From contig JAVZCK010000004.1 in NCBI GenBank assembly GCA_038874435.1, forward strand, positions 62,001 through 126,000: a DNA stretch of 64,000 nucleotides, read 5' to 3'. Every line of letters starts with the position of its first letter. Within the stretch, counting starts at the first letter, position 1. The notes under the pieces were generated by a model. That model was not told where the DNA came from, ran no database searches, and worked only from the letters and a program-made list of their open reading frames with translations. The stretch comes from Thermoplasmata archaeon. Lineage in GTDB: Archaea; Thermoplasmatota; Thermoplasmata; Lutacidiplasmatales; SKW197. Below, one piece after another: positions 36,504 through 38,966 of the stretch. The position numbers and the translations under genes are program-made.

Positions 36504-36961
36504 AGGAGCACAAACTCCTCACTGTGATTTTCTTCATTGCCATTTTCTTCGGTGTGCTCTCACCATTCGTGTATTATGCACAATACAGCGGGATTGTTCA
36601 GCTTGGTTTTATTGCATTCACAGCCCTTATTGGCGTGTTTCTAGTTTATTACTACGGTTTCCATACTTCTAGTGAGGAGCGAGAGGAGGCAAGAAGAAGC
36701 GAGCGTTGGGAAAGGTTTGACAAGACCGCAGAGCGGGCATTGCAGGGCTACACATTGAGCCAGAATATTCTAAAAGACAGCGTGCTTGAGGCCTACATGC
36801 GGCTTTACAGTGTGAAGGAGCCAAAACAGCTGCGGGGCTTTGTGGATGATGACATTCTGAAATTTCTGATGCGCAAGCCAGAGAAGATTCGGATAAAAAG
36901 GAGCGGTGAAGAGTTCTACCAGATGATGATGAGGGTGTTCAGAGAGGAGGGTGTAGAATGA
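36500..36961 (+). CDS. Two-helix membrane protein accompanying DUF4129 protein
   Basis: 153 residues starting with TTG 36500, which overlaps the stop of the preceding gene. Two membrane helices at about 7-27 and 32-52 are followed by a charged cytoplasmic tail of 100 residues (SEEREEARRSERWERFDKTA). I do not recognise the family; it has the position and size of the small helical protein that often follows DUF4129 genes. It overlaps the DNA methyltransferase gene by four bases (ATGA), so the two are translationally coupled. Confidence 0.7.
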   Translation: MKEHKLLTVIFFIAIFFGVLSPFVYYAQYSGIVQLGFIAFTALIGVFLVYYYGFHTSSEEREEARRSERWERFDKTAERALQGYTLSQNILKDSVLEAYMRLYSVKEPKQLRGFVDDDILKFLMRKPEKIRIKRSGEEFYQMMMRVFREEGVE

Positions 36962-38259
36962 GCGTTACTAGGAAGAAAGATATATGTGATCAAGTATATT
37001 CGAATCTGATGCCAAACAGTGATGTAATTGTGGATAAACCTATTAGGGGATTTCTATTCTTCTGCACAAACAGGAGCGAGGAAGAATGTTTCTCTAGAAT
37101 GTTGTTTGGAACAGAAAAGCAGTATGGTCCTGTGGTTATAAGAATCAGAAAAGACGACCTCCTGTTTTTGATTAACATAGATATGGATGCTCTCTATGGC
37201 GTTTTCAAAGCTGCCTCTGATGGAGGTTTCAAACTATTTCCAGAAGCATGGGGTGGCAAATACCCATACCAGGTGAAAATTGAACAAATAGGAAAAATAA
37301 TTAAATTGAAAGATGCAAATAAAATACTAAAAAATTTTGAAATAAGAAGAAATACACCGCTATTTGGCAAAAAGCTGTTAAAATTCCTTGATTTGTTTGC
37401 ATCTAAATCCCCACTACTGGAAGACATAGAGAGCTGGGATGCTCAGACAACGAAACTTATTCTAAGGGAGAGATCGCGGGTAAAAGAAAGGATGGATATC
37501 CAAGACATTGAAGATGAGATTCCACTCCTTGAAAGCACCACATTCTGGGATTTTCCAAAGCAGAGCTATGGTCTTACACCAAAAGGGAACAATAAGTACC
37601 CTGGTGTTACTCCGGCACTGATTATCTACAATTTGATATGGAGGTATACAGAACCTGGAGACCTTATAGTAGACCCAATGGCTGGAAGTGGCACAACTCT
37701 GGATGTGTGTAACGAGGAAAAGCGGAGATGCATCTGCTATGACATTGCCCCCACAAGACCAGAAATAATTCAAAACGATGCGAGAAAAATTCCTCTGGAA
37801 GACAATTCAGTTGACATGGTGTTTATTGATTCACCCTACGGAGACAACATTAGATACAATGAGCATCCTGACTGCATAGGCAAAATTTCTTGTGAAACCG
37901 CAGAATTTTACGATGAACTTGAAAAAGTGATTAAAGAGTGCTATCGCATATTGAAACCTGGTAAAGTTCTTGGCTGGCTGATAGGAGACCAGTGGGTCAA
38001 GAAGAAGTTTACACCAGTTGGTTTTCTGATATATGAACGTCTTTGCAAATACTTTGAGCCAGTTGACATAATTTGTGTGGCAAGGAGAGGACAAGCATCG
38101 CACACGGATGTGTGGCATAACAGAGCAAGACGATTCAATTTCTTTCTGAGGGGATTTAAGTATCTGATAATAGTAAGGAAGCAAGGGGTGGAGAAAAGCA
38201 AAATTGCCAAGTCTAGAAAAATAACATGGACATTTTATGAAAGAGGAAAATTATCATAG
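36958..38259 (+). CDS. DNA methyltransferase with N-terminal DCD-like domain
   Basis: 433 residues. Residues 30-147 read as a DCD-like (PUA/EVE-superfamily) domain: RGFLFFCTNRSEEECFSRML, FG, then LLFLINIDMDALYGVFKAAS, and EAWGGKYPYQVKIEQ. This is the succession of conserved positions known from plant DCD proteins. Residues 215-430 are an amino-methyltransferase: SAM motif I DPMAGSGTT (239-247) and the catalytic DSPYGDN (291-297), a variant of (D/N/S)PP(Y/F), in the order I then IV. It probably methylates adenine N6 or cytosine N4 in the recognition site of the neighbouring endonuclease. The DCD-like part may recognise DNA or a modified base. The ATG overlaps the stop of a membrane protein gene, which is unusual for a modification gene. 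Confidence 0.8.
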   Translation: MSVTRKKDICDQVYSNLMPNSDVIVDKPIRGFLFFCTNRSEEECFSRMLFGTEKQYGPVVIRIRKDDLLFLINIDMDALYGVFKAASDGGFKLFPEAWGGKYPYQVKIEQIGKIIKLKDANKILKNFEIRRNTPLFGKKLLKFLDLFASKSPLLEDIESWDAQTTKLILRERSRVKERMDIQDIEDEIPLLESTTFWDFPKQSYGLTPKGNNKYPGVTPALIIYNLIWRYTEPGDLIVDPMAGSGTTLDVCNEEKRRCICYDIAPTRPEIIQNDARKIPLEDNSVDMVFIDSPYGDNIRYNEHPDCIGKISCETAEFYDELEKVIKECYRILKPGKVLGWLIGDQWVKKKFTPVGFLIYERLCKYFEPVDIICVARRGQASHTDVWHNRARRFNFFLRGFKYLIIVRKQGVEKSKIAKSRKITWTFYERGKLS

Positions 38260-38270
38260 GAGGAGTTAAG

Positions 38271-38966
38271 ATGAAATTTGAGGACTTATTAACACTGTAT
38301 GAAGGAATGAGACAAAAGTACGGTAATGAGACATACAAGCACATCTCAGAATTGTTCTCATTAGCAAAAGAAATGCATAAAAACGACTGGAAAAGAAGTC
38401 CGACGCCACAGGGTGATCATGAACAATCTTGGCGTGCATTCAAAGGAAAAAACTTTGAGAAACTGATAATGTATGTTATTAAGAAAGAAGTTGAAGGACT
38501 TGGGTTGAAAGTGGTTGAGGGAAACATTTTAGAAAGAACCACATCAATCAATCTCTCGAAAGAGCTTAGCCTGGTAAAAAGAAATCTACTTATAGATTAT
38601 GGAGAGTTTGGTGCCCATTTGCCAGATGTGGATATAGTAATTTATCATCCTGTTTCTCTCCGACCACTTGCAGTAATTTCGACTAAGATCACTCTGAGAG
38701 AGAGGATTGCTCAAACTGGATACTGGAAATTAAAGCTGATGCAGGATGAAGTTACAAGACATATTAAGGTATTTTTCATTACTCCAGATGAAGATGGCAC
38801 ATTAAAGGCGAAGAAGCCCACAAAGAAGGGACGTGCAATTGTTGAGGTAGATACAGATGGAAGCTATGTAATGAGTGAAGAAAAAATAGAAGAAAGTGAT
38901 AAAGTAAAGATGTTTGACAAATTTATTGAGGACTTAAAAAAATTGGTGGAAAAAGGTTCTATTTAA
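38271..38966 (+). CDS. Type II restriction endonuclease, BsaWI-like
   Basis: 231 residues, preceded by AGGAGGAG. Near 112-150 it has GAHLPDVDIVIYHPVSLRPL followed by AVISTKITLRERIAQTGYWK. The P118-D119 and S137-T-K139 pair with downstream E144 fits the catalytic layout of the CCGG-type PD-(D/E)xK enzymes, in which Ser replaces the usual acidic residue before x-Lys. The phrase STKITLRERIAQT is shared with BsaWI-like enzymes. It probably cuts a CCGG-containing site. It follows the methyltransferase gene by 11 bases and is convergent with cdc48. Specificity cannot be read from sequence. Confidence 0.75.
   Translation: MKFEDLLTLYEGMRQKYGNETYKHISELFSLAKEMHKNDWKRSPTPQGDHEQSWRAFKGKNFEKLIMYVIKKEVEGLGLKVVEGNILERTTSINLSKELSLVKRNLLIDYGEFGAHLPDVDIVIYHPVSLRPLAVISTKITLRERIAQTGYWKLKLMQDEVTRHIKVFFITPDEDGTLKAKKPTKKGRAIVEVDTDGSYVMSEEKIEESDKVKMFDKFIEDLKKLVEKGSI

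Follow-up and report, generated by a model that had tools for sequence, protein, structure and literature searches.

The window analysed here, a stretch of 64,000 nt from a Thermoplasmata archaeon, contains a pair of adjacent genes that probably encode a two-gene type II restriction-modification (R-M) system, consisting of a methyltransferase (M) with an N-terminal DCD domain and a restriction endonuclease (R). We propose, with a probability of about 0.6, that the DCD of M is an accessory reader of modified bases and not a target-recognition domain (TRD). The evidence comprises computed assignments to domain and enzyme families, a predicted fold, the absence of the DCD from sister systems, and the selective constraint on this domain in genomes without a detectable nuclease. 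The features of the locus are listed in Table 1.

Table 1. Features of the M-R locus, with positions in the window
Feature	Position	Strand	Basis
M, DCD-fused N6/N4-type DNA methyltransferase, 433 aa	36958..38259	+	ORF list, Pfam
DCD domain, M residues 31-119, predicted PUA/EVE/YTH-like fold	37048..37314	+	PF10539, AlphaFold, Foldseek
Variable linker, M residues 121-187	37318..37518	+	pLDDT; dN/dS in close relatives
Methyltransferase core, M residues 188-408	37519..38181	+	PF01555; invariant alignment residues
R, BsaWI-type CCGG-family restriction endonuclease, 231 aa	38271..38966	+	PF18643; BsaWI 4zsf by profile
R-E-R, R residues 143-145, putative CCGG-recognition motif	38697..38705	+	alignment mapped to BsaWI residues (PMC4652773)
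R 3′ end, persisting as scar in same-genus genome G254	38930..38966	+	locus comparison

Gene layout, methyltransferase core, and nuclease

Both genes are located where a preliminary description of the sequence had placed them, as two adjacent open reading frames on the + strand with 11 bases between them. The ATG of M and the stop codon of the preceding gene overlap within the four bases ATGA, and downstream of the pair lies a convergent gene for a Cdc48-type ATPase. The methyltransferase is the sole component that is recognized by NCBIfam, PHROGs, and PADLOC. Outside the DCD, two stretches of M match PF01555 (N6_N4_Mtase; 1.8e-24), so that the proposed fusion of a DCD to a DNA methyltransferase holds. 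The SAM motif I (DPMAGSGTT, residues 239-247) lies ahead of motif IV (DSPY, residues 291-294), which has the catalytic form (D/N/S)xP(Y/F/W), and both are nearly invariant among 23 relatives. The second half of the linker was modelled with low confidence, and the pLDDT is <50 at residues 156-216.

R matches PF18643 (RE_BsaWI) with E=1.4e-32, and a profile of the R family retrieves BsaWI (PDB 4zsf) from the PDB with E=2e-5. The residues in use in BsaWI, i.e. E92, D145, K165, and R169-D170-R171 (PMC4652773), correspond in the alignment to E63, D119, K139, and R143-E144-R145 of R. D119, K139, R143, E144, R145, and Q52 are invariant in 20 R proteins, and E63 is nearly so. R-E-R starts 4 residues past the catalytic K139, as in the K-x3-RER of the CCGG family, and it is present in every R ORF that spans this region. 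Because these family residues are kept, recognition of a CCGG core by R is likely, as had been suggested for a CCGG-type endonuclease beside M. The exact site may differ from that of BsaWI and its outer bases are uncertain: K85 of BsaWI, which reads the outer base pair, aligns to A56 of R and the lysine is not conserved, so that a W-CCGG-W site is not to be assumed. In the CCGG family, the second acidic residue after R-D-R is D or E, or Q in Kpn2I (PMC6344858). It is D175 in BsaWI, whereas R has no conserved D/E at this spacing and an invariant Q148 nearby.

The observed/expected ratio of CCGG is 0.54 in the host (464 kb) and 0.69 in a cassette-free genome of the same genus (400 kb), relative to which CCGG-containing words show no specific avoidance in the host. 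GATC, CGCG, and TCGA are shifted more than CCGG, and avoidance of CCGG or WCCGGW was therefore not used as evidence for the target. As a separate observation, ACGT and GATC are strongly under-represented in the host (observed/expected ~0.2 in the window plus 400 kb of other host sequence), and ACGT is under-represented in the same-genus genome as well (0.08).

The DCD domain and its predicted fold

Residues 31-119 of M match the Pfam model PF10539 (Dev_Cell_Death) with E=1e-20 and 74 bits (cut-off 27.8), a strength far above chance expectation, which bears out the earlier assignment of the N-terminus of M to the DCD family. Each of the 23 full-length relatives has the match. The domain is rare in the phylum, with matches in 4 of 293 sampled genomes, three of which exceed the cut-off. 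The conserved residues are C36, T37, E41, E43, C44, F50, Y56, G66-D67, N73, W98, Y102, and Q105-V106.

An AlphaFold model of the isolated domain has a pLDDT of 93.7 and a pTM of 0.87, and its elements follow the order strand-helix-strand-helix-strands. In a Foldseek comparison with solved structures, YTH domains rank on top (Mmi1, YTHDF2, Pho92; TM ~0.7), and further matches are the EVE proteins PH1033 and MJECL36 and the EVE-HNH endonuclease VcaM4I, with E values for these groups of 1e-5 to 1e-3. YTH domains are m6A readers, and in VcaM4I a pocket receives the flipped-out 5mC or 5hmC (PMC7897488). As the closest solved structures are modified-base readers, the DCD model has the fold of such readers, and from this fold we infer that the DCD of M would read a modified base. 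The spacing T37-x3-E41 equals that of T11-x3-E15 in VcaM4I, which contact the flipped cytosine; this likeness in sequence spacing is a lead only.

The predicted structure and its matches to YTH, EVE, and VcaM4I agree with the PUA-like, EVE-related fold that had been postulated for the domain. At the profile level, the postulated relationship to the DCD model was recovered and that to EVE was not, since no significant alignment of the DCD with slow EVE profiles was obtained by hhalign, both profiles being perhaps shallow. Searches of the PDB by the DCD sequence alone gave no significant match. An EVE match (2p5d, E=1.1) is too weak to count by itself, and enterotoxin matches to the N-terminal region of M (E 0.08-0.2) were regarded as chance.

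A different function would be the binding of an RNA or a protein partner and the regulation of M, which has a precedent in proposals for the DCD proteins of eukaryotes. YTH domains, the closest structures, are mostly RNA readers, and full-length M is most similar in fold to Trm11 tRNA methyltransferases, owing to the catalytic domain. However, the genomic partner in many unrelated lineages is a DNA restriction enzyme, and we regard this function as highly improbable.

Related loci with and without the DCD

Scanning the GTDB species genomes yielded 43 loci of four main kinds. In kind A, a DCD-M is followed by R (the window, L002-L006, L008-L013, L021, and L031; some R genes are disrupted or truncated at contig ends). 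In kind B, a DCD-less M of 262-281 aa adjoins R (L023, L025-L028, L030, L037, and L043). Kind C has the order M2 (a second methyltransferase), R, and a DCD-less M of 222-238 aa (L032-L036 and L038-L041, from CPR and Ignavibacteria). In kind D, a DCD-M has no adjoining R (L007, L014-L018, L019, L024, and L029) or is accompanied by R fragments (L020). The adjacency of M and R (the window, L002-L006, L008-L011, L021, L023, L025-L028, L030, L032-L041, L043, and others) is kept across many unrelated lineages. In some CPR and Ignavibacteria loci of kind C, a small ORF lies between R and M (e.g. L039:4748-4993, L036:4760-4993).

The loci of kinds B and C bear on a rival role of the DCD, that of an ordinary TRD or a domain of general DNA affinity, which would confer site specificity or binding strength on a small methyltransferase that otherwise lacks a TRD. 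M has no other obvious TRD, its core comprises ~220 residues, and PUA-fold domains bind nucleic acid. However, the DCD-less Ms (222-281 aa) keep the whole core, and their partner R are mostly 65-71% identical to the R of the window. DCD-less twins from Chloroflexota, e.g. L025 and L043, have 64-66% identity in the M core and 70-71% in R (66% and 71%, respectively, for L025). A DCD was found nowhere in the genomes with a DCD-less M (0 of 18, including drafts, in which genes may be missed), whereas the positive control scored. A phage also uses a DCD-less M, 58% identical to M; its gene (L159:149-937) lies on a contig of a tailed phage that also has genes for a terminase and a portal protein. 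No R follows it in the downstream sequence covered, and the phage protein possibly serves self-protection against an R of such kind. The twins, the lack of a DCD in their genomes, and the phage copy thus make a TRD role of the DCD unlikely, with the specificity of R in the twins assumed to be equal from the identity values. The top structural matches of the DCD, which are modified-base readers, also argue against this role, and we consider it quite improbable. The option of the preliminary description that the DCD sets the target choice is disfavoured by the existence of the same M-R pair without any DCD in the genome.

DCD-Ms are also paired with a second R subfamily that is just 31-39% identical to the R of the window, so that the DCD and R vary independently. 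The methyltransferase tree requires at least two changes of the DCD, and a loss of the DCD is suggested by DCD-less copies from DPANN, which nest, moderately supported, among the DCD-bearing sequences. M2 was rejected as a regular partner in the window, because the best full-length match to M2 in the own genome is 27% identical. In two Nitrososphaera genomes, R lies beside an M2 with a TSPPY motif (L094:1399-3188, L095:125-1920) and the DCD-M is encoded elsewhere, which is a split version of the three-part arrangement.

Loci of kind D are informative about the role of the DCD apart from R. In 8 of the 10 genomes, all drafts in which R could be missed, R was not found, and in the other two (G302 and G303) an M2 adjoins R at a separate locus. 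For pairs of R-less soil Nitrososphaera (L015, L016, and L017), dN/dS values are 0.10-0.14 for the DCD, 0.06-0.08 for the methyltransferase, and 0.53-0.70 for the linker. The DCD is thus under purifying selection in Nitrososphaera without a detectable R. Its retention where no nuclease was found places its function with the methyltransferase, i.e. the DCD serves the METHYLTRANSFERASE, with the proviso that R could be missed in draft genomes.

These results also bear on a published prediction. Bell, Wolf and Koonin (2020) predicted recognition of modified bases for the DCD (PMC7641849). In their model, foreign or pre-modified DNA is recognized through its modified bases by the DCD, and a further methylation by M averts or alters cutting by R. 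The model was put forward for the same architecture (PMC7641849), and it fits the EVE/YTH-like fold of the DCD as well as the reading of modified DNA by EVE-HNH and YTH-McrB enzymes. However, DCD-M is under purifying selection where no R was found, so that protection from R is not the reason for its retention, and R of the same family also accompanies the DCD-less twins. We regard this model as unlikely.

In the same-genus genome G254, the same flanks enclose 111 bp (L050:1386-1498), and this gap ends in ~37 bp that match the 3′ end of R, including the stop codon. The presence of this R end rules out G254 as an ancestral empty site; most likely, the ancestor had the cassette and G254 lost it by deletion. 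The scattered distribution fits horizontal transfer. Broken copies include a split R (L012:6234-6927), a split M (L031:4980-6139), R fragments (L020:1546-1819), and a remnant with only the DCD (L046:1408-1848), and the system decays often.

Proposed mechanism and comparison with known systems

For the cutting at CCGG, the methylated base, the ligand of the DCD, and the tethering of M, we propose the following mechanism. Unmethylated DNA would be cut by R at a site with a CCGG core, and the host copies of this site would be methylated by M. The DCD, as an accessory PUA-fold reader, would bind a modified base and tether or direct M. Its likeliest ligand would be a mark of self DNA, e.g. a parental-strand base methylated by M or a partner methyltransferase. 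If the DCD reads a self mark, as we tentatively propose, M would re-methylate replicated self DNA in preference to methylating incoming DNA for the first time. Because the DCD is retained without R, its simplest role would be to hold M on DNA that is already marked, most plausibly newly replicated self DNA. A more specific form appears doubtful at present: M would be a maintenance-type enzyme whose DCD recognizes the modified base that M or its partner had put on the parental strand.

By joining a reader to its writer, an R-M system would have a simple means of giving preference to self DNA that is marked. If maintenance reading were true, the system would be a prokaryotic counterpart of the animal pair of an SRA reader and a maintenance methylase; self DNA would stay protected and unmarked invaders would be exposed to R. 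Highly similar R-M pairs that either have or lack the DCD, together with the nuclease-free copies, are natural controls that make the function of the DCD directly testable, and a swap or a deletion of the DCD would test the 2020 prediction of modified-base reading. In the literature searched, we found no experimental study of a DCD in a restriction context and no ligand shown for any DCD domain.

Plant DCD proteins and M belong to a common domain family, given the strong match to PF10539, and we know of no methyltransferase or nuclease partner of the plant proteins. R shares with BsaWI and other CCGG-family type II endonucleases the PF18643 domain, the PD...K-x3-R(E/D)R signature, and the N/Q and E helix residues, and it is shorter than BsaWI (231 versus 272 aa). 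VcaM4I (EVE-HNH) and the YTH-domain McrB resemble M in that a PUA-fold reader is fused to a defence enzyme. In these two cases, the reader is part of a modification-dependent cutter, whereas the DCD is part of the writer of an R-M pair.

The preliminary description knew of no published system of this architecture, yet the same architecture was described by Bell, Wolf and Koonin (2020), who characterized the prokaryotic DCD as EVE-like and often fused to Rossmann methyltransferases, usually followed by a gene for a PD-(D/E)XK nuclease (PMC7641849). Their systems, mostly from archaea and thermophilic bacteria, equal that of the window in fusion and gene order (PMC7641849). BsaWI is not named in their text (PMC7641849), and the assignment of the nuclease to the BsaWI/CCGG family is made here. 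The architecture of a DCD-methyltransferase with a nuclease is thus already known; the DCD-less twins, the R-less copies, and the phage copy are added here, and the pairs with and without the DCD are new.
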